Shown here: one piece after another, positions 22,773 through 42,724 of the stretch
Layout: each line of letters begins with the position of its first letter
Position numbering within the stretch: the stretch's first letter is position 1
NCBI RefSeq assembly: GCF_014212495.1
Contig: NZ_JACKZC010000002.1
Coordinates: 434,001 to 498,000 of the forward strand
From: Pontibacter sp. Tf4
GTDB lineage: Bacteria; Bacteroidota; Bacteroidia; Cytophagales; Hymenobacteraceae
DNA length: 64,000 nucleotides
Reading direction: 5' to 3'
Translations under genes and position numbers: made by a program
Notes under the pieces: model-generated
What the model saw: only the letters and a program-made list of their open reading frames with translations
Told to the model about the DNA's origin: nothing
The model's database searches: none

Positions 22773-25085
22773 ATGATCAGCAAACGTATATTTGCTTTTA
22801 TAGCGGCTGCCTGGTTAAGTATAGGTATAAGCGCCGCCCGCCCCGACGAGGGCATGTGGTTACCTATGCTACTAAAGCAGCTTAACGAGTCTGAGATGCA
22901 GAAAAAGGGCATGAAGCTCTCTGCCGAAGACATCTACAGTGTTAATCAATCGAGCCTGAAAGATGCCATCGTATCGTTTGGTGGTTTCTGTACCGGCGAA
23001 ATGATCTCCCCGGAAGGTCTGTTGCTAACCAACCACCACTGCGGTTACGGCCAGATACAGCAGCACAGCTCTGTTGAGAACGACTACCTGACCAAAGGTT
23101 TCTGGGCAATGGATAAGAGCCAGGAACTGCCTAACCCGGGCCTTACTGCCACTTTCATCGTGCGCATGGAAGACGTGACCAAGCAGATATTAGCGGGTAC
23201 GGATGCGGCCAAAACAGAAGCCGAGCGCGAAGCCATCATCCAGAAAAACATGGCTACAGTAGGTAAGGCTGCTACAGCCGGCACCCACTATGGCGCTGTT
23301 ATCCGCCCGTTCTTTTACGGCAACGAGTACTACATGTATGTAACTGAAACGTTCAAGGACATCCGCCTGGTTGGTGCTCCGCCGTCATCTATCGGTAAGT
23401 TTGGTGGCGATACAGATAACTGGATGTGGCCACGCCATACCGGTGACTTCTCACTTTTCCGTATTTATGCCGGCCCTAACAACGAGCCAGCCGAGTACTC
23501 GCCGAACAACAAGCCATACAAACCAAAGCACCACCTGCCAATTTCGCTGAGCGGTATTAAGCAGAACGACTTTACCATGGTGTTCGGTTTCCCGGGCCGT
23601 ACCAACGAGTACCTTACTTCGGATGCCATCGAGGAGATCTACAACGTATCTAACCCGGCCAAGATCAAGATCCGTACTACCCGCCTGAACGTGCTGGATA
23701 AGGACATGAAAGCGTCGGATGCGGTGCGTATACAGTATGCCGCCAAGCACGCCAGCATTGCCAACGCGTGGAAAAAATGGCAGGGCGAGAACCGTGGCCT
23801 GCGCAAAGCCAATACTATTGAAAAGAAGAAGGAGCTGGAGCGCCAGTTTGCCAACTGGATAAATGCCGATGCCGCCCGCAAGCAGCAGTATGGTAACCTG
23901 ATGGCAGAGTTTGAAAAGAACTACAAAGCGCTGGACGGCATCACAATTTCCCGCGACTACATTATGGAAGCCGCTAATGGTGTGGAATTGATCCGTTATG
24001 CATCGGGCTTTGCCAAACTACAGCAACTGATCGAAAGCAAAGCGCCACAGGCCGAAATTAACGCAGAAGCTGACAAGTTAGAGCGTGCCGCCGCCGGCTA
24101 CTTTAAGGACTACAATGCCCCTACCGACCAGAAAGTGTTTGTTGCCCTGATGGGACTTTACTACAACGACCTGGACAAGAAACTGCTGCCAGCAGCCGTA
24201 AGAACAGCCGGCGAAAAGAACAAAGGCGACTTCAGCAAACTGGCATCAGACATCTATAGCAAAACCAGCCTGACCTCAGAAGCAGGAGTTAAAAAACTGT
24301 TAGCCGATGTTAAAGCCGGTAAAACCAATGTGTTAGCCAAAGACCCTGCCTTTGAACTGGCAAACAACATTAACGAGCATTACCGCACCCAGGTGCTGCC
24401 AACTTATACGGCAGTTAACGACAACCTGAACCTGTTGTACCGCACGTACATGACCGGCCTGCGCGCCATGCAGCAGGACAAGAAGTTTTACCCGGATGCC
24501 AACTCCACACTGCGTGTAGCCTATGGTAAAGTAGAGCCTTATGAGCCGCTGGATGGTGTTACCTACAACTACTACACTACCCTGGAAGGTATTATGGAAA
24601 AAGCTGCCATGCCAGGTGTGGAAGACTATGTGATACCTGAAAAACTGCGCGAACTGTACGAGAAAAAGGACTACGGTCCGTATGGCATGAACGGCGAAAT
24701 GCCTGTAGCCTTTATTTCTTCCAACCATACAACAGGTGGTAACTCCGGCTCTCCGGTTATTAACGCCAATGGCCAGCTGATCGGTACCAACTTCGACCGG
24801 AACTGGGAAGGCACCATGAGCGACATCGCTTATAACCCGGACCAGGTGCGTAACATTTCGGTAGATGCCCGCTACATGCTGTTTATAGTTGATAAGTTTG
24901 CCGGAGCCGGCCACCTTGTAAAAGAGATGACCCTGGTGACGGATGATACTTCTGGTTTGCCACAGGTAGACAGCCGTAAAAAAGCTGAGCCAGCCAAAGA
25001 GCTTTCTGAAAAAGAGAAACGCAAAGCAGAAAAAGCAGCTAAAAAAGCCAAAAAGAAAGCGAAAGAAGCTGCTGAAGTAAACTAA
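22773..25085 (+). CDS. dpp11: S46 dipeptidyl-peptidase, DPP11 type (Asp/Glu-specific)
   Basis: 770 residues from ATG at 22773, which gives a proper signal peptide (cleavage near SAARPDEG); the frame is open 50 codons further but that stretch is not protein-like. Catalytic His is in LTNHHCGYG and the nucleophile Ser658 in TGGNSGSPV. Eighteen residues after the Ser is Arg676, in NFDRNWEG; the equivalent position separates DPP11 (Arg, Asp/Glu at P1) from DPP7 (Gly) in Porphyromonas. The enzyme removes acidic dipeptides in the periplasm. The C-terminal 30 residues form an unusual Lys/Ala-rich tail. A strong terminator follows. Confidence 0.93.
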   Translation: MISKRIFAFIAAAWLSIGISAARPDEGMWLPMLLKQLNESEMQKKGMKLSAEDIYSVNQSSLKDAIVSFGGFCTGEMISPEGLLLTNHHCGYGQIQQHSSVENDYLTKGFWAMDKSQELPNPGLTATFIVRMEDVTKQILAGTDAAKTEAEREAIIQKNMATVGKAATAGTHYGAVIRPFFYGNEYYMYVTETFKDIRLVGAPPSSIGKFGGDTDNWMWPRHTGDFSLFRIYAGPNNEPAEYSPNNKPYKPKHHLPISLSGIKQNDFTMVFGFPGRTNEYLTSDAIEEIYNVSNPAKIKIRTTRLNVLDKDMKASDAVRIQYAAKHASIANAWKKWQGENRGLRKANTIEKKKELERQFANWINADAARKQQYGNLMAEFEKNYKALDGITISRDYIMEAANGVELIRYASGFAKLQQLIESKAPQAEINAEADKLERAAAGYFKDYNAPTDQKVFVALMGLYYNDLDKKLLPAAVRTAGEKNKGDFSKLASDIYSKTSLTSEAGVKKLLADVKAGKTNVLAKDPAFELANNINEHYRTQVLPTYTAVNDNLNLLYRTYMTGLRAMQQDKKFYPDANSTLRVAYGKVEPYEPLDGVTYNYYTTLEGIMEKAAMPGVEDYVIPEKLRELYEKKDYGPYGMNGEMPVAFISSNHTTGGNSGSPVINANGQLIGTNFDRNWEGTMSDIAYNPDQVRNISVDARYMLFIVDKFAGAGHLVKEMTLVTDDTSGLPQVDSRKKAEPAKELSEKEKRKAEKAAKKAKKKAKEAAEVN

Positions 25086-25110
25086 TCCAAACTATAGTTT
25101 ATAGTTTACC

Positions 25111-25147
25111 AAAAGCCCCGCCTATCGTTTAGGCGGGGCTTTTTTTA
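25111..25147 (+). terminator. Terminator after the DPP11 gene
   Basis: AAAAGCCCCGCCT / AGGCGGGGCTTTT with a short loop and a following T-run. The rest of the 305-bp spacer to 25390 shows nothing I can name. Confidence 0.9.
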
Positions 25148-25390
25148 TATCTCTTGTAGATGAATTCATGAGCCGGCTGGATTATCTACAGAAACTCTCT
25201 ATATTAGCTAAACTATATACACTTGCATTTTATACATTTGCCAATTCTATGAACGGGTGTAGCTTACTAAAGAACAGTGTTAATTGCTGAGCAATTAGCC
25301 TTACAACTATAGCTGCACCCGGGGAGAGATATGACAAGTTACGACCGTACAGGCTTTGCCTATTGACTTTACCATCTGAAACAAACGACA

Positions 25391-35405: not shown

Positions 35406-36233
35406 ATGCACGAAAAAGCAGATATCAGTATTATAGGTTGTGGCTGGCTGGGCCTACCCCTGGCAGAAACGCTGGTGAATTTCGGGAAGCGCGTAAAAGG
35501 CTCTACCACCTCTCCTGCCAAGCTCGACCTCCTGGCACAAAAAGGAATTACCCCTTACCTCATCAACCTGCAGGAGGAAACAACAGACGAAGCTGCCTTG
35601 GCCGACTTGCTGGAAACCGATGTACTAGTGATAAATATTCCGCCACGGTTGCGGGCGGATGGCGGCGAATCCTATCTGAACCAACTGCAGCGACTCCGCA
35701 AGGCCATGCTGGACTCGCCGGTCAAAAAAGTGCTGTTTGCCTCGTCTACCTCGGTGTACAACGACCTGAACCAGATCGTGACAGAACAGGACAGCCAGTT
35801 TACCAAACCAACCGACCCCGGCTATAGTTTGCTGCAGGCTGAACAGCTGTTTCAGGAGCGCGAAGAGTGGCTGACAACCATTGTACGCTTTGCCGGACTG
35901 GCCGACGATGACCGCAGTCCGGGCCGTTTTCTGGCTGGCAAAACAGACGTACCTAATGGCGATGGTCCGGTCAACCTCATCCACCGCACCGACTGCATCA
36001 TGATCCTGAAGCGCATTATTGAACAGGAAAAATGGGGCGAAGTGTACAACGCCTGCTCGGATATGCACCCCATGCGCCGGGACTTTTACCCTGCCGCAGC
36101 ACTGGCCTTAGGCCTGCAACCGCCTGTTTTCAAAGAGATGGAGGAAACACGTTTCAAGATCATCAGCAATCAGAAACTGAAAGATGACCTGCCTTACGTT
36201 TTCCAGTACCCCGACCCTATGGGCTTCTTTTAG
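35406..36233 (+). CDS. NAD(P)-binding epimerase-like protein (YeeZ-type)
   Basis: 275 residues. Rossmann start ISIIGCGWLGLPLAETL, then FASSTSVYND and the EQLFQE region; extended-SDR-like but with a Gly pattern (GCGWLG) closer to the atypical YeeZ group. Catalysis unclear because the classic YxxxK is not obvious. It is followed after 86 bp by the HI0933-like flavoprotein gene, whose probable -7 box TATCTTTG lies at 36234-36241. Confidence 0.8.
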   Translation: MHEKADISIIGCGWLGLPLAETLVNFGKRVKGSTTSPAKLDLLAQKGITPYLINLQEETTDEAALADLLETDVLVINIPPRLRADGGESYLNQLQRLRKAMLDSPVKKVLFASSTSVYNDLNQIVTEQDSQFTKPTDPGYSLLQAEQLFQEREEWLTTIVRFAGLADDDRSPGRFLAGKTDVPNGDGPVNLIHRTDCIMILKRIIEQEKWGEVYNACSDMHPMRRDFYPAAALALGLQPPVFKEMEETRFKIISNQKLKDDLPYVFQYPDPMGFF

Positions 36234-36319
36234 TATCTTTGTGTTTGATTGCCGGTTGTTAATTGCTGATTGCCAAGATCTCTTCACAACCAAAAACAAT
36301 CAACAATAAACAACCAACA

Positions 36320-37576
36320 ATGACTTATAAAATAGTGGTAATAGGCGGCGGGGCGGCTGGTTTTTTTGGAGCAACTACCTGTGCAGAGGCAAATCCGGAC
36401 GCAGAAGTGGTGCTACTGGAGAAAACGAATAAACTGCTGGCAAAAGTGCTGGTTTCGGGCGGCGGACGCTGCAATGTAACACACCACTGTTTTTTGCCCG
36501 GGCCACTTTCGCAGCACTACCCGCGCGGTGCAAAACCATTAAAAGAAGCCTTTAAAACCTTCGGGGCCCGGGAAACGGTAACCTGGTTTGAGGAACGTGG
36601 CGTAAAACTGAAGACCGAAGCCGATGGCCGCATCTTTCCGGTTACTGATAGCTCCCAAACGATAGCCGACTGCCTGTTGCAGCAGGCCCGAAAAGCCGGC
36701 GTAACTATAAAAACCGGTACAGGAGTTACCCGCATTCAGCCACCGGATCATACTACAGACAAATTTATAGTTTACCTGAACAATGGCTCCGAACTGAAAG
36801 CCGATAAAGTATTGGTTAGCACCGGTGGCAACCCCAAAAGTACGGGCTACGACTGGTTGCGCGAACTGGGCCACCCTATTCAGGAGCCTGTTCCCTCGCT
36901 GTTCACGTTCAATGTGCCCGGTAACCCGCTGAAAGAGCTGATGGGTGTTTCGGTGCCGCATGCCAAAGTGCGCATTGCCGGCCAGAAACTGGAATACGAA
37001 GGTCCGCTGCTGATCACGCACTGGGGGTATAGTGGTCCGGCCGTACTTAAATTATCTGCCTGGGGAGCCCGCATTTTCCATGACCAGAACTATAGTTTCA
37101 CGGCCCTCATTAACTGGATACCAACCTATACCGAAGAAAGCTTACGGGCAGAACTGCAGCACTACAGACAGGCACATCCTAAAAAATTGGTAGCTACCAA
37201 CCCGCTTTTCGGTTTGCCGCAGCGCCTCTGGAAAGCGCTGGCAACTATAGCTGAGATTACTCTGGAAACAAAATGGGCCGAACTGCCGGGCAAAAATACT
37301 AATAAGTTACTGGAGGCGCTGCTGCGTATGGAGGTGCGGGTAAATGGCAAAACCACATTTAAAGAAGAATTTGTAACCTGCGGCGGTATTGACCTGCAAC
37401 AGGTAAACATGAAAACATTGGAGAGCCGCCTGCACCCGGGGCTGCACTTTGCCGGCGAAGTGCTGGATATAGATGGCATTACCGGTGGCTTCAATTTCCA
37501 GGCCGCCTGGACAACGGGCTACCTGGCCGGCAAGGCCATGGCCGCTGAAACTATTTTGTACCATAGCAACATTTAG
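36320..37576 (+). CDS. HI0933/YhiN-family FAD-dependent protein
   Basis: 418 residues from ATG at 36320; upstream in-frame codons are in a low-complexity A-rich stretch. FAD motif VVIGGGAAGFFGA, LLEKTNKLLAKVLVSGGGRC and the C-terminal GEVLDIDGITGGFN block are all family hallmarks. Biological role unknown in most bacteria. It contains several in-frame CTATAG copies. Confidence 0.9.
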   Translation: MTYKIVVIGGGAAGFFGATTCAEANPDAEVVLLEKTNKLLAKVLVSGGGRCNVTHHCFLPGPLSQHYPRGAKPLKEAFKTFGARETVTWFEERGVKLKTEADGRIFPVTDSSQTIADCLLQQARKAGVTIKTGTGVTRIQPPDHTTDKFIVYLNNGSELKADKVLVSTGGNPKSTGYDWLRELGHPIQEPVPSLFTFNVPGNPLKELMGVSVPHAKVRIAGQKLEYEGPLLITHWGYSGPAVLKLSAWGARIFHDQNYSFTALINWIPTYTEESLRAELQHYRQAHPKKLVATNPLFGLPQRLWKALATIAEITLETKWAELPGKNTNKLLEALLRMEVRVNGKTTFKEEFVTCGGIDLQQVNMKTLESRLHPGLHFAGEVLDIDGITGGFNFQAAWTTGYLAGKAMAAETILYHSNI

Positions 37577-37623
37577 TTACCAATATGAGTAATACCGCAT
37601 ATAGTAACTAAACCTTTAAAACT

Positions 37624-38079
37624 ATGGAAATTAACAAGGAAGTATTATCTACTGTACACCACCTGATCGAAAGATGCAAAGATGGTGCTAAAGGATATAA
37701 AACTGCAGCACAGGATGTAGAAGATCGCGACCTGAAAGACCTGTTCATGAAATACGCCGTACAGCGCGACAGCATGATCACTGAGTTACAGGGCGAACTG
37801 CACAAAATGGGCCACACCGACGACGAATCGAGCTCCCTGGAAGGCACTGTGCACCGCATCTGGATCGACATTAAATCGGCTATAAGCTCTAAAGACAGAA
37901 AACGTATACTGGAAGAATGCGAACGCGGCGAAGATTACGCTGTAAAAGCATTTGAAGAGGCCCGCGCCGCCAACCTGCCCGGCAACCTGAAGCAGATCGT
38001 GGAGCAGCAATACATGGACGTAAAAAATGCCCACGACCATATCCGTGCCTTACGCGATAAAGCCAGAAGCGAAGCCTAA
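37624..38079 (+). CDS. PA2169-family four-helix-bundle protein (DUF2383)
   Basis: 151 residues, all helical and charged (LSTVHHLIERCKDGAKGYK ... ELQGELHKMGH ... CERGEDYAVKAFEEA). This matches the PA2169/DUF2383 ferritin-like family, often stress-linked. Single gene with a terminator directly after it. Confidence 0.88.
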   Translation: MEINKEVLSTVHHLIERCKDGAKGYKTAAQDVEDRDLKDLFMKYAVQRDSMITELQGELHKMGHTDDESSSLEGTVHRIWIDIKSAISSKDRKRILEECERGEDYAVKAFEEARAANLPGNLKQIVEQQYMDVKNAHDHIRALRDKARSEA

Positions 38080-38103
38080 GCCGGTAACTATAGTTTAAAC
38101 TAT

Positions 38104-38130
38104 AAAAGGAGCTGCAAGGCTCCTTTTTTT
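38104..38130 (+). terminator. Terminator after the DUF2383 gene
   Basis: AAAAGGAGC / GCTCCTTTT with a short loop and T-run. It marks the left border of the AT-rich cassette island. Confidence 0.8.
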
Positions 38131-38165
38131 GTGGTAACGTCTTGTACAGAATGTGGGGAGGCGTA

Positions 38166-38203
38166 GCCGAACCTGAATTATGCACCTTGTTAGGTTTAGG
38201 GCG
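38166..38203 (-). other. attC-like recombination site A (end of cassette 1)
   Basis: On the minus strand the site begins GCCCTAAACCTAAC (contains ACCTAAC, an exact RYYYAAC box) and ends CAGGTTCGGC; AACCT/AGGTT can pair across it. It is short and lacks a long central stem. The stop codon of the cassette gene lies inside it. Confidence 0.5.
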
Positions 38204-38687
38204 TTTTTGTCCGTCCCTTTCGTTTTATTTCTTTCAATTCTTCTCTGATTGGCACAAACTCATGTTCATAACATGGCTGTTTTGTTGTAAAGAGCCCTTT
38301 TTCAAATGCTGCCAAGTGCAGTTCAGACAGCTTTTTAAATCGCTTCTTTCGAAGTCTGTCAATTCTTCTTGCGGACATAAAGTCATAACTACCATGATAC
38401 ATTAAAATTATGTCAAGCTGGTTACATTGTTCGGGCATTTGAATAGTTTTCCACTCCATACCAAGCCAGCTAATCAATAGTTTATCTATTGTATGAGGAA
38501 TTTCTATTTCGAATTTTCCTTCTTTATTTGTTGTTCCAAGTACTACAGTATCTAAGCTCTGAATCCTAACTTCTGGAAGAGCTTCCAAGTTTTCGCTTAT
38601 CACTCTCCCAGTGATAGTTCTTGTCTGTCCGTAAACCTTCACGCACACAACAAGTGAGAGCATTAAGAAGCATATTGTTAATTTCAT
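38196..38687 (-). CDS. Cassette gene 1: secreted carboxypeptidase-regulatory-like protein
   Basis: 163 residues from ATG at 38685-38687, which follows an in-frame GTG. Signal peptide (to about VYGQ), then a CarboxypepD_reg-like segment (TRTITGRVISENLEALPEV ... TNKEGKFEIEIPH) and a basic, helical C-terminal part (ARRIDRLRKKRFKKLSELH). Codon choice is AT-rich compared with neighbours and no CTATAG copy occurs in it, pointing to recent acquisition. It is bounded by attC-like sites A and B. Function unknown. Confidence 0.75.
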   Translation of the reverse strand: MKLTICFLMLSLVVCVKVYGQTRTITGRVISENLEALPEVRIQSLDTVVLGTTNKEGKFEIEIPHTIDKLLISWLGMEWKTIQMPEQCNQLDIILMYHGSYDFMSARRIDRLRKKRFKKLSELHLAAFEKGLFTTKQPCYEHEFVPIREELKEIKRKGRTKTP

Positions 38688-38724
38688 CACTTATGTGAGG
38701 GTGCAAGTTTTATACTTTGGCTTT

Positions 38725-38797
38725 AACCTAACGGTTAGTATAAACAGCGTGCTATGCCGTCGGCCGTGGCATGGTGTTTATGCAGTGTTGTAGGGCG
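38725..38797 (-). other. attC-like recombination site B (between cassettes 1 and 2)
   Basis: Read on the minus strand it starts CGCCCTACAAC (38787-38797) and ends GTTAGGTT (38725-38732); GTTAGGT is an exact GTTRRRY box. The interior folds: ATAAACA/TGTTTAT and ATGCC/GGCAT pair with unequal bulges, as in attC sites. It lies directly after the stop of cassette gene 2. Confidence 0.6.
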
Positions 38798-38801
38798 TTT
38801 T

Positions 38802-39266
38802 TTATTTTACTTCTGGTATTCTTAATTGAAGAAAATTCTCTTTTATAATTTCAGTTTGAGAAATTTTAATTGTCTGTTCTTCTCTTCCATCAGCTTTCCA
38901 GTTTGTCATTGTACTAACAGTAAACTCTTTGCAATTATCCATTCCTGGTGGGACAAACGCTTTTTTAAAGTCAGTCCATATTGTTACATCCAGTTTTTCC
39001 AGTTTAGCCAAGTCGCAATCATGTTTTTCAAAGTGGTCAGGTAGCCAATCAATATAGTCATTCATTAGTTGTACGCTTTCCTTTGAAATCGCTTCTTGCG
39101 GCTCAATAGTCTTATTTAAAAAGTCAAAGGTTGCTTTTGTCTCTTTTCCTGCTTTATGTAAGTCGATAAGTACATTGACAGCAAGTCTTCCGCTTTTCAT
39201 AAAGTCGATGCTCATGAAAGAGTGGGCAAAATTGTGAATAGCGGATTTATAATTTCTGAACTTCAT
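38802..39266 (-). CDS. Cassette gene 2: hypothetical protein
   Basis: 154 residues, no signal peptide, no motif I recognise. Mixed helical content with hydrophilic stretches; Asp/Glu/Lys-rich. Start ATG at 39264-39266 lies 18 bases inside the unit boundary of site C, a leader length usual for integron cassettes. Base composition is distinctly AT-rich and CTATAG is absent. Confidence 0.7.
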   Translation of the reverse strand: MKFRNYKSAIHNFAHSFMSIDFMKSGRLAVNVLIDLHKAGKETKATFDFLNKTIEPQEAISKESVQLMNDYIDWLPDHFEKHDCDLAKLEKLDVTIWTDFKKAFVPPGMDNCKEFTVSTMTNWKADGREEQTIKISQTEIIKENFLQLRIPEVK

Positions 39267-39275
39267 ATTTTAAAT

Positions 39276-39344
39276 GCCCTACAACTATGGTATAACAGGA
39301 GTACCTACTCCTGTTATCTGCACTATGAATGGTGTTGTGAATGC
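39276..39344 (-). other. attC-like recombination site C (start of cassette 2)
   Basis: A perfect 12-bp stem ATAACAGGAGTA (39292-39303) / TACTCCTGTTAT (39306-39317) sits between outer half-sites GCCCTACAAC (39276-39285) and GTTGTGAATGC (39334-39344). On the minus strand it ends in GTTGTAGGGC, complementary to the first half-site of the next site (B). Confidence 0.6.
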
Positions 39345-39429
39345 TAAACCTACTATAGCGCAATACGAATATAAGAAATTGGGAGAGAAAAGAAATTGGA
39401 AAGGCAAACTATAGAAAGGCATAAAAACA

Positions 39430-39463
39430 ATAAGGGAAACATCCGTCTGATGTTTTCCCTTAT
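39430..39463 (-). terminator. Possible second terminator downstream of the CsdA-like gene
   Basis: AAGGGAAACATC pairs with GATGTTTTCCCTT (one bulge); on the minus strand the stem is followed by ATTGTTTTTAT. The 437-bp spacer 39267-39703 holds site C, this hairpin and the terminator at 39595-39623, and no gene. Confidence 0.5.
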
Positions 39464-39594
39464 CATATCTAACTGCGTAAACAGTTAGTTAATCTTCCAA
39501 CCTTTTTATGATACTCCTTTTACGCCGGTGCTGGCAGCAAGGTTATAGTTTGCCACAAAAAATCTGAAAAAATTTTACAACCAGCTATAAAACA

Positions 39595-39623
39595 AATAAG
39601 CCGACGTTTCAAGTCGGCTTATT
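39595..39623 (-). terminator. Terminator after the CsdA-like helicase gene
   Basis: Perfect 11-bp stem AATAAGCCGAC / GTCGGCTTATT with loop GTTTCAA; on the minus strand followed by TGTTTTAT. Confidence 0.85.
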
Positions 39624-39703
39624 CTAACAGTTAATGAAGTTTTTTAAGCTTCTAAAGCTGTATGGTTATTTATACGCCTCTTAAAGGCGAAGGTTGCTAT
39701 AGT

Positions 39704-41542
39704 TTAGAATCTTTTTCTGCGGAAGCCACGGTTCTCGCCACCACGGTCTCTGTCGCGGTCGCCACCAAAACGGCTACCTCCGCGGTCTCCGCCTCTGTCG
39801 CGGTCACCACCGAATCTGCTACCGCCACGATCACCTCGGTCACGGTCTCTGTCGCCACCACGCGGGCCACCGAAACGGCTGCCACCACGGTCGCCTCTGT
39901 CGCGGTCGCCGCCACCAAAGCGACTTCTGCCACCACGTTCTTCTCCTTCTTTAGAGCCTTTTTTATCAGACTTCTCAACCACAACCATGCGGCCATCCAC
40001 TTCAATGCGGCCTACTTTCTCCAGAATATTGGCTGTGTACTCCGTAGGCACTTCCACAAAGCTGAACTTGTCGTACAGGTCGATGTCCCCAACTTTTGAG
40101 GCCGGTATATCGGCATTGGATGCCAGCAGGTCGATCAGGTCTTTCGGGTGAACGCGGTCTTTCTTACCAATGGTAATGAACAGGCGGTCATATCCTTCTT
40201 TTGATAAACCGAGGCCTTTTTCAGCTTCTTTGCCGGCTTCTTTTACCTTCGCCTCTTTCAGGCTCATTTTTAGTAACGCAGCAGCAACTTCCAGCGAAGT
40301 ATAGTCTTCGTTTATCAGTTTTTCGATAGTGGTGATGTGCTTGGTCAGGTTGCCTTTCTCCAGCACTTCGCGCACTTTTTCCAGGAACATGTTGGTGCGC
40401 AGCTCATTCACGTCTTCGTAGGTAGGTACCTGCTGCAGCACAATATTCGCTTTGGTATAGCGCATAATGTCTTTCAGCTTGTACATATCCGAGCGGCCCG
40501 ATACAAACGAGAACGCCTTACCTGATTTACCGGCACGACCAGTACGGCCAATGCGGTGCACGTAAGCTTCTTCGTCCTGCGGAAGGTCGTAGTTAAACAC
40601 TGCTTCCACGTTCTCCACGTCGATACCGCGGGCGGCTACGTCGGTTGCTACCAGTACTTCCAGCTGCCCGTTACGGAACTTGCCCATCACATTGGAGCGC
40701 TGGTTCTGGTTCAGGTCACCGTGCAGGCCATCGGCAAAATAACCACGGCTTTGCAGGTTGGTTACCAGTTCATCCACCATACGCTTGGTATTGCAGAAGA
40801 TCACCACCGACTTCATGTTATACATATCCAGCACGCGCGAAAGTACTTCCTGCTTCATGCTGTTTCGTACCTCAAAGTACACCTGGTCTATGTTGGTAAC
40901 GGTAAGCTCTTTGTGCACCACCTTCACAATCACCGGATCGTTCTGGTAACGCTTGGTCAGCTCCATGATCGGCTTCGACATAGTGGCCGAGAAGAAAATG
41001 GTCTGGCGCTCTTCCGGCATGTGGCTCAGCACAAACTCGATGTCTTCGCGGAAGCCCATGTCCAGCATTTCGTCTGCTTCGTCCAGAATGATCTTTTTGA
41101 TCTTATCCAGCTTAAGCGTACCGCGCTCGATGTGGTCCATCACACGGCCCGGCGTACCGATCACGATCTGAACACCCTGCTTAAGGGCGCGCAGCTGGCG
41201 GTCGTAGGACTGGCCACCGTAAATGGGCACGATGCTGATGTTTGGCTTATACTTGATCAGTTTCTGGATCTCGCCGGCTACCTGGATAGCCAGTTCGCGG
41301 GTTGGGCAAAGTATAAGTGCCTGAACGCTTTTATCGCGCTCGTCTATGCTTTCTATAGTTGGAATACCGAAGGCAGCTGTTTTACCGGTTCCGGTCTGTG
41401 CCTGGCCAATGATGTCGCGGCCTTCTAAAACTACGGGAATTGCTTCGGTCTGAATGGGAGAGGCTTCTTCGAAGCCCATGTCGGCAATAGCTTTTTGAAC
41501 CTCCGGCGAAAGCGGAAGCTCATCAAATCTGATTTTGTTCAT
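39704..41542 (-). CDS. DEAD-box RNA helicase CsdA/DeaD-like with RG-rich tail
   Basis: 612 residues. Core motifs: AQTGTGKT, PTRELA, TPGR, DEAD, SAT, VATDVAARGID, HRIGRTGR. A DbpA-type RNA-binding domain (about 455-535, RLFITIGKKDRVHPKDLI ... FSFVEVPTEYTANIL) is followed by some 75 residues of RGG/DRDRG/SRFGG repeats, a flexible RNA-binding tail. It probably unwinds RNA during ribosome assembly, notably in the cold. The long 642-bp spacer upstream may include a regulated leader. The tail is coded by near-identical short DNA repeats (39710-39930). Confidence 0.93.
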   Translation of the reverse strand: MNKIRFDELPLSPEVQKAIADMGFEEASPIQTEAIPVVLEGRDIIGQAQTGTGKTAAFGIPTIESIDERDKSVQALILCPTRELAIQVAGEIQKLIKYKPNISIVPIYGGQSYDRQLRALKQGVQIVIGTPGRVMDHIERGTLKLDKIKKIILDEADEMLDMGFREDIEFVLSHMPEERQTIFFSATMSKPIMELTKRYQNDPVIVKVVHKELTVTNIDQVYFEVRNSMKQEVLSRVLDMYNMKSVVIFCNTKRMVDELVTNLQSRGYFADGLHGDLNQNQRSNVMGKFRNGQLEVLVATDVAARGIDVENVEAVFNYDLPQDEEAYVHRIGRTGRAGKSGKAFSFVSGRSDMYKLKDIMRYTKANIVLQQVPTYEDVNELRTNMFLEKVREVLEKGNLTKHITTIEKLINEDYTSLEVAAALLKMSLKEAKVKEAGKEAEKGLGLSKEGYDRLFITIGKKDRVHPKDLIDLLASNADIPASKVGDIDLYDKFSFVEVPTEYTANILEKVGRIEVDGRMVVVEKSDKKGSKEGEERGGRSRFGGGDRDRGDRGGSRFGGPRGGDRDRDRGDRGGSRFGGDRDRGGDRGGSRFGGDRDRDRGGENRGFRRKRF

Positions 41543-42184
41543 CTTTTAGTTTACTGTTTATATCCTTACTCTGGATGCAGCCTGGATTTTACTAATCCCT
41601 ATACGCGTCGAAAACTAAAATAAACCAGGTGAGCCTATCAAAATATAGAAGCCGTGCCAGTTAAACAGTAAATCAGACTGATTCCAAAAACGGCTGCAAA
41701 GGTACGATTTTTAATCGGGAAAAACTAACACCCGCTCCTTTTGGGCCCGCCAACACAAACCCTTAAATATACAAACATTAATATTATGCTATATTTAAAG
41801 GTATAACATTATAAAAACAACTATAGTATATATTGTAACTATTTATTTATTTTTTATTACTATTTACACAACCTTATAACAACCTTTTACTTCTTTACCC
41901 GTTAATAGCAGCAATTCACCAGTTTTTGATGTTTATCCACCCATAATTTAACTATAAGACTAAAATTTTTACTTATTCAGCCGTAGTATACAAAAATCTT
42001 ACAACCCAAAACCAATTACCCTTATGCCCTAACCATTACTGCCGCACACACAAACTTAGTACCACGCCACCAAACCTACCTCCTTATTGAACAGAAGCTA
42101 ATGAGTTAGTTGCCGCTTTTACAGAGGCAAAATAATCTCAGAGAAACAATTAACTAAACCTTAAACCCTTTAGTCCCTCACTTT
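41543..42184. promoter_or_regulatory. 642-bp AT-rich divergent intergenic region
   Basis: It lies between two divergent genes and is strongly A/T-rich, particularly 41750-42000, with only one CTATAG copy (near 41820). A single near-match to the DnaA box, TTATCCACC, occurs near 41934. No ORF or RNA family is recognised. Long 5' leaders for both flanking genes are possible. Confidence 0.5.
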
Positions 42185-42724
42185 ATGTTACATTTTACAA
42201 AAGTTTCAACTCAAGGTAAAGATTTCAACCTTATCGCTTCTGGTGCGCTGGCATTTAAGATCCACAACAAGATCCTGAAAGACGAAGCCTTTACAACCAA
42301 CACATCTATGAGCCGCAACATGCTGGTAGGCAGCGTTCCGGCCCGTAAAGCAACCTCACACAACAAAAGCGTATTCTTTGTTATCATCTCAGACCTGGAC
42401 AAAATCGATACCGAATCGTTGAGCAAGATGATCCGGGAGGAGCGTGCCAAGGGCAGCTATGCCGTGTGCCAGGTAATTCCGATGTATTACAACGAATTGT
42501 CTTTTAAAGCCCTTAAAATGCTTCGCCAGAACTTTGATGAAGTACTGGAATTAAGCAAAATGAACCTCGGTGGCGGTAAATTACTGATGAATATGGAGCA
42601 GCAGCACTGCCTGATGACCGACTATGTAGTGTCAATGGCCCGCATTATGTTCCATGTTTGTGCCAACAGCTCGATACCAGCTAAAACTGTTGAAGAACGT
42701 ATTGAAGAACCTGTATTTGCTTAG
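42185..42724 (+). CDS. Unrecognised 179-residue protein
   Basis: Complete gene with ATG after an A-rich stretch and a strong terminator after the stop, so it is very likely expressed. No signal peptide or membrane segment. The middle alternates predicted strands and helices (SVFFVIISDLDKIDTESLSKM, then CQVIPMYYNELSFKALKML), giving an alpha/beta look. I recognise no family and assign no function. The unusually long AT-rich upstream region is notable. Confidence 0.75.
   Translation: MLHFTKVSTQGKDFNLIASGALAFKIHNKILKDEAFTTNTSMSRNMLVGSVPARKATSHNKSVFFVIISDLDKIDTESLSKMIREERAKGSYAVCQVIPMYYNELSFKALKMLRQNFDEVLELSKMNLGGGKLLMNMEQQHCLMTDYVVSMARIMFHVCANSSIPAKTVEERIEEPVFA

Follow-up and report, generated by a model that had tools for sequence, protein, structure and literature searches.

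Sedentary chromosomal integrons, as found in Vibrio, Xanthomonas and Treponema, combine a tyrosine recombinase with an attI site and tandem gene cassettes, whose attC sites carry complementary R boxes and a conserved stem. A single attI is described per integron (PMC3607928), and integron searches recognise the integrase by an extra domain (PMC9024848), which the IntegronFinder authors treat as the mark of IntI (PMC9024848); XerCD recombinases are without I2-like domains (Escudero et al. 2016; PMC4792948). Arrays with no integrase beside them, known as CALIN or SALIN, are also described, CALIN being recognised by attC clusters (PMC9024848). For Bacteroidetes proper, IntegronFinder 2.0 names one complete integron, that of Salinibacter ruber (PMC9024848). 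In the open-access literature, which leaves out most subscription journals and preprints, we recognised nothing on integrons of Pontibacter or its neighbours, on integrases without the extra domain, or on orphan attI sites.

The locus described here lies in Pontibacter sp. Tf4 (the host), within a 64 kb stretch of DNA that was analysed as a whole and is called the window below (Table 1). It forms an island with a G+C content of 36–37%, compared to ~50% outside, whose terminal attC is followed by a terminator-like repeat behind the DUF2383 gene. The island is very likely a two-cassette integron array behind its own attI, part of a chromosomal integron system that Pontibacter shares with three neighbouring GTDB genera; recombination itself is inferred. 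The sequences demonstrate an attI, two attC sites of the genus type and complementarity between the two ends of each cassette; sister genomes carry differing inserts at this locus, cassette 1 recurs elsewhere in the host genome, host contig C23 encodes an integrase of the matching family, and attI sites far outnumber integrases. None of the island's open reading frames (ORFs) encodes a transposase, and protein comparison found no integrase in the 64 kb window. An Rfam scan of positions 36000–42500 returned only four sub-threshold matches, to eukaryotic microRNA or enterobacterial families, which were dismissed as chance. The shared word TAGGGCGTTTTT is confined to this locus within the genome.

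Table 1. Features of the island and its surroundings (positions in the window).
Feature	Position	Strand	Remarks
Integrase 3′-end scar with its downstream box	25169–25238	+	79% over 73 bp to L023:2191-2261
DUF2383 gene (flank)	37624–38079	+	
Island		-	1.2 kb; minus-strand order attI, cassette 2, attC, cassette 1, attC
Terminal attC (site A)	38135–38193	-	attC model 46 bits, E 6.4e-9; flank junction G38138|T38137
Cassette 1	38138–38731	-	594 bp, holds gene A
Gene A	38196–38690	-	164 aa, GTG start; ATG at 38687
attC between cassettes (site B)	38727–38791	-	attC model 38.6 bits, E 3.7e-7
Cassette 2	38732–39284	-	553 bp, holds gene B
Gene B	38802–39266	-	154 aa, no family found
attI (integrase-less platform)	39282–39340	-	Crossover between G39285 and T39284
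TATATTCG box	39366–39373	-	~80 bp upstream of crossover; possible cassette promoter (inferred)
DEAD-box helicase gene (flank)	39704–41542	-	

To search for attC sites, a covariance model was trained on 11 sites at loci L014 and L015, which belong to two other genomes. Up to E 10, it matched the 64 kb window only twice, both times in the island and on the minus strand; 53 integrase loci together yielded 220 matches (E ≤ 0.5), among them the 11 training sites. The terminal attC is closest to a site in the array of L016 (89.7% over 58 bp). In 150 attC sites, 91.8% of the L″/L′ stem was paired as opposed to 62.2% after shuffling, with covariation of 0.735 versus 0.240 (0 of 500 shuffles), both values being subject to the caveat that the alignment was fitted to the model. 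Only the attI palindrome and, at site B, the plus strand folded better than their shuffled sequences; site A did not, and folding energy was rejected as a sole attC criterion since it would have overlooked site A. Site B reaches −13.6 kcal/mol when folded from the genes' complementary strand, against −7.9 on the other; that strand of attC is the one that known integrons recombine (cf. PMC2727003). As a separate observation, the nearest relative of site B among the compared loci is an attC of a Rufibacter locus (87.5% over 64 bp), a possible hint at cassette transfer between genera.

Each cassette opens with TT and bases complementary to its own final bases, as would be expected if each had once been a circle. 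The start of unit 2, TTGTAGGGC, equals the reverse complement of its own end (TTGTAGGGC) at 7/7 variable positions, and that of unit 1, TTAGGTTAA, agrees with its reverse-complemented end, TTAGGTTTA, at 6/7. The same rule holds in related arrays, where 85 neighbouring site pairs, drawn from the best 150 sites, of which 143 were usable and 7 were left out, matched at a mean of 4.78/7 positions compared to 2.41 ± 0.14 when shuffled, a value that 0 of 2000 shuffles attained. Exact own-end pairs, which were not curated, numbered 33 in 51 kb downstream versus 3 in 84 kb upstream at 14 Rufibacter, Adhaeribacter and Sabulibacter loci, and 16 versus 3 at 14 Pontibacter loci (84 kb each).

These results bear on a first-pass annotation of the locus, which had reported integron boxes, self-complementary unit ends and imperfect stems. 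Boxes and ends held, and both sites scored in the covariance check it had called for, with a model made from related arrays; the stems held in part, folding energy supporting the plus strand of site B and not site A. Its borders for unit 2 (about 38732–39284) were right, and those for unit 1 partly so, the crossovers placing them at 38731 and 38138, ~34 bp longer than claimed. What had been read as a half-site at the upstream end is corrected to a full attI, and the lack of CTATAG at the island failed as a sign, the window containing 12 longer stretches free of it.

The attI was identified with a sequence model of 31 integrase-adjacent sites, from which the host and its sister genome G029 had been left out. 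Up to E 10, the window held a single match, at 39340–39282 (40.3 bits, E 1.6e-11), which is 94.4% identical over 54 bp to the attI adjoining the integrase of G029. An attI-like site followed the stop codon in 47/47 integrase ORFs recognised among the 53 loci, as judged by a profile itself built from most of those sites. In the host, whose genome gives one match to the integrase N-terminus, 17 attI matches were found at E ≤ 0.1 (16 at E ≤ 0.01), just one of which has an integrase beside it by protein comparison; the other 16 are without one within the ~1.4 kb checked. Behind eight of these orphans, an attC match on their strand lies no more than ~1.6 kb away, two of these matches being weak; the remaining eight showed no attC match behind them. 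A scan for cassette ends behind the 17 sites scored 6–7/7, with attC-like sequence following, at L230, L235, L236, L238, L242 and L245. L241 and L243 also reached 6/7 and were not counted, as nothing attC-like lies behind them; L232 was mis-anchored, L240 unanchored, L229 and L231 left no room, and the rest scored 4–5/7. The pattern extends through the genus: at E ≤ 0.01, all 50 genomes searched carry attI (4–22 each) and attC (12–67 each), numbers that are at least these, with ~110 candidates scored per genome. G029, a one-contig genome, has 13 attI and one integrase match, so that there the excess is no assembly artefact.

A box similar to TATATTCG occurs within 40 nt after the integrase stop codon in 47/47 ORFs. 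Upstream of attI (50–125 nt), such a box was present at 5/17 host sites compared to 0.8% of control pieces; with 5/17 in the host, the TATATT box was rejected as a trait of most orphan attI. The sites themselves are of more than one type, the attI beside the host integrase being of the GCGTATG type and that of the window of the palindromic type seen beside the G029 integrase. We also observed an element beginning TTGGCCGTGATTGGGATTATTTTC directly behind attI in L011 (1-208), at the start of host contig C9 (L231), and in L018, L024, L057 and L061, with a variant in L023, L038 and L056, in several species and sometimes at a contig end. It is a recurrent first unit behind attI, apparently free of ORFs, no ORF scan having been run.

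Comparison of the locus between relatives, done by alignment in 14 of the 50 genomes, showed that its content changes. Within the sister group, delimited by DUF2383 identity of ≥89% and without a tree, an attI-like site is retained in 7/7 genomes (the host and six others) and the inserts differ in each. The six are G029, G009, G013, G015, G018 and G045 (E 3e-10 to 2e-4), the site being weak in G018 and G045 (E 2e-4 and 3e-5, respectively). At the locus, attC sites passed in G009 (4), G013 (2) and G015 (1); none passed E 5 in G018, in G045 or at the G029 insert. Outside the sister group, the flanks are spaced by only 20–103 bp in G032, G039, G005 and G046, ~94 bp in G002, and ~220–240 bp in G006 and G001. 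A profile scan found no attI below E 1 at the loci of G032, G006, G036, G002 and G001, no attI was visible by eye in the relatives' empty sites, and 22 further DUF2383 loci gave no attC up to E 5 within ~1.5 kb on each side.

Cassette 1 has a second copy on host contig C3 (L132; 82.7% over 589 bp), sitting behind another attI-like sequence recognised by eye. The homology runs from 38732 to 38150, that is, from within a base of the cassette start to 12 bp short of its end.

The window also preserves a trace of an integrase at 25.15 kb. Its upstream flank (24854–25149) aligns with L023:1-295, and the scar that follows, consisting of the last integrase codons and the downstream box, is too short for a protein match. 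At the counterpart of this position, an integrase is present in G029, G005, G046 and G003, several relatives having a complete integron there. In G029 it is intact and accompanied by attI, and a second attI lies ~11 kb further on, at the counterpart of the island, followed by a different cassette.

Taken against the remaining claims of the first-pass annotation, integron-type cassettes held, on the strength of the attC model, the own-end complementarity, the repeat occurrence of cassette 1 within matching borders, the differing sister inserts and the empty sites of the more distant genomes examined. The absence of an integrase held for the locus, an enzyme of the matching family being encoded elsewhere in the genome. 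As to the half-sites it suggested seeking near an integrase, the attI type of the window stands beside the integrase of sister genome G029, the attI of the host's own being of the other type. Units were likewise to be compared between sister strains: inserts differ, and the more distant genomes examined lack the site. The result it named as a refutation, absence of any attC score together with the gene pair keeping its order in distant relatives, did not occur.

The integrase of this system is a tyrosine recombinase of ~480 aa, followed in the relatives by attI and attC arrays; in L014 and L015, the gene is directly followed by an attI-like site and consecutive cassettes. The columns R, K, H..R, H and Y, the catalytic residues of tyrosine recombinases, are invariant in 34 sequences. 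The IntI-specific extra domain is absent, with 44 residues of IntI1 lacking a counterpart and VchIntIA residues 209–251 unmatched. The integron integrase model TIGR02249 found a match in 50/50 genus genomes and exceeded its cut-off in 0/50, many matches lying in open frames of ~480–600 aa, often near a contig end. The host enzyme scored 204.7 bits with the XerA model and 198.2 with the integron integrase model (cut-offs 220 and 265, respectively); the host has a separate Xer-length match in an open frame of 302 aa.

In place of the extra domain, the family has ~200 N-terminal residues with two predicted β-β-α-β-β-α repeats. Structure prediction reached a mean pLDDT of 78.7 for the whole protein and 83.4 for the N-terminus alone (pTM 0.52 and 0.48). 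No convincing Pfam match to the repeats was found in 22 members; a distant one-repeat relative (L138) matched HARP below cut-off (E 0.001), Foldseek gave a weak hit to 4o66 (E 0.11), and the top fold match was the XPB N-terminus (Z 6.5, 55 residues, 2.2 Å). Together, these weak, model-based matches may point to fork- or damage-recognition domains such as HARP of SMARCAL1 or that of XPB, a lead only, as many unrelated folds score similarly.

In the host, the intact integrase gene is found at the beginning of contig C23, whose sequence is cut off 353 bp past the stop codon. A large array on contig C8 is directed at the contig end, ~750 bp beyond the first attC; this layout would fit a cut array, a possibility for which no sequence overlap joining C8 and C23 was found. 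In 78 related loci, which are not independent, contigs ended within 3 kb downstream only in 39 and upstream only in 3 (sign test 2.8e-9), as repeats behind the integrase gene would cause. A motif scan further noted, next to the integrase in 37/47 loci (e.g. L011:1915-2295), a divergently oriented gene whose ~126-aa, Cys-rich product had no Pfam or NCBIfam match; at a few of the remaining 10 loci, the available sequence was short.

A scan of named genomes pointed to Pontibacter, Botryobacter, Rufibacter, Adhaeribacter and Sabulibacter. Within the genus, the integrase N-terminus was matched in 43/50 genomes, some by fragments only; seven carry attI and attC with the N-terminus unmatched, and several others retain only fragments, so some platforms must be fossils. 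Among 200 genomes of the family, the N-terminus was found in 64 (E ≤ 1e-5) and attI in 74 (E ≤ 1e-3), in the same four of six genera; outside the genus, both were present in 20 genomes, the integrase alone in 1 and attI alone in 4. Searches of 394 other Bacteroidota genomes, in which only 13 candidates per genome were scored, yielded attI in 1 (E 0.004) and attC in 2 (38.4 and 27.1 bits), one match each, the former attC (G207) being on par with site B. Related recombinases were also seen in Bacteroidales, Flavobacteriales and other MAGs (L209, L211–L228), most aligning only from about residue 80–200 onwards and having one N-terminal repeat or less. Their contigs end within 3 kb downstream in 16/19 cases and upstream in 2/19, and L215 shows, by eye, an attI-like palindrome and one unit; exact cassette pairs nearby were few (4 in 30.9 kb versus 2 in 97.7 kb upstream). 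These relatives may mark further hidden integrons.

Gene A matches PF13715 at 30.1 bits (E 4.9e-7), under the cut-off of 32.2, a possible weak resemblance, inferred from sequence alone, to the carboxypeptidase-regulatory-like domain of outer-membrane proteins. Its one clear relative among 2.0 Mb of compared loci is in the host itself, and gene B found none there, its best Pfam match being sub-threshold (CowN, E 0.076). PADLOC, run on six cassette genes, gave a single weak match. In another array, L015:7279-8594, two neighbouring cassettes hold PemK-like and HigB-like toxin genes; the HigB partner has an HTH domain and the PemK partner no Pfam match.

With sedentary chromosomal integrons, the Pontibacter system shares a tyrosine recombinase, attI, tandem cassettes and the attC features of R-box complementarity and stem conservation, as well as toxin-antitoxin-type cassettes (PemK-like and HigB-like in L015). 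Its integrase gene points towards attI, an orientation also reported in Treponema (PMC3607928), and the enzyme differs in lacking the extra domain and having two N-terminal repeats. Where one attI per integron is described (PMC3607928), many here stand without an integrase; the system does have an attI next to the integrase gene, a criterion for integrons, the island attI having no integrase adjacent. The island resembles CALIN and SALIN in being an array without an integrase beside it and satisfies the CALIN definition of ≥2 attC, but unlike them it has an attI and its content varies between sister genomes. To Xer recombinases (XerA, XerH, XerC/D), the catalytic domain is at least as close as to IntI, again with no integron-specific insert; unlike Xer, the family has attI and cassette arrays behind its gene and N-terminal repeats. 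Arrays and attI in this position speak for a role other than Xer dimer resolution at dif.

Our best reading of the system, inferred from sequence alone, is one unconventional integrase with dispersed integrase-less attI platforms. The enzyme would act at G|TT, recombining an attC folded from a single strand with a double-stranded attI, and circular cassettes would be inserted at TAG|TT of any recognised attI, beside the integrase or elsewhere. Either the C23 integrase or one lost from 25.15 kb of the window would act in trans on the island and the other dispersed attI. The two N-terminal repeats might substitute for the integron-specific domain in handling hairpin DNA, and the box ~80 bp upstream of the crossover might drive cassette expression. 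Against this reading stand the missing extra domain and the slightly higher score with the XerA model. On balance, we lean towards the island site still being served in trans, its activity being inferred; against this, the C23 enzyme may not use the window attI, given that the attI types differ.

The alternative that survives best regards the island as a fossil, a platform left over from this integron system, with cassettes now frozen and an attI that no enzyme uses any longer. This remains possible, is compatible with a real array and overlaps with our preferred explanation. In its favour are the integrase scar at 25.2 kb of the window, the different type of the attI beside the host integrase, and the sister genomes G009 and G013, which keep the platform without a match to the integrase N-terminus, and G018, which has only a 48-residue fragment. 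Against it, the scar is 13 kb off and a different locus: in G029 a separate orphan attI occupies the place of the island, and the integrase, intact and with its own attI, that of the scar. Inserts differ in all seven sister-group genomes, and the host has an intact integrase.

It is very unlikely that an integron integrase inserted the cassettes into a chance attG-like site with no true attI. Cassettes can insert at sites other than attI, and the flanks are ordinary genes. However, cassette 2 is preceded by a site matching the attI found next to integrases (E 1.6e-11), sister genomes retain an attI-like site with other inserts while the empty sites of relatives have no visible attI, and convergent attI similarity would be required. 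A transposon or other hairpin-ended island, suggested by short AT-rich genes of unknown function with inverted repeats, is all but excluded, as no island ORF encodes a transposase, unit ends in related arrays conform to the rule for cassettes (85 site pairs), and the sites stand in tandem arrays behind one recombinase family.

Returning to the in-trans reading, a bolder version, for which we find as much to commend as to doubt, is that of a distributed integron, in which one integrase without the canonical hairpin-recognition domain would serve a dozen or more scattered integrase-less attI. Twin N-terminal repeats resembling fork-DNA-binding domains would aid it, captured genes would be placed in many loci rather than one array, and similar systems may exist throughout Bacteroidota, run by the shorter one-repeat relatives. 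This would be a gene-capture system whose form escapes integron searches. If the enzyme works, the extra domain would not be essential for cassette recombination, which would bear on the origin of integron integrases from Xer-like enzymes; and if true, many attI per chromosome would represent a new gene-capture architecture.
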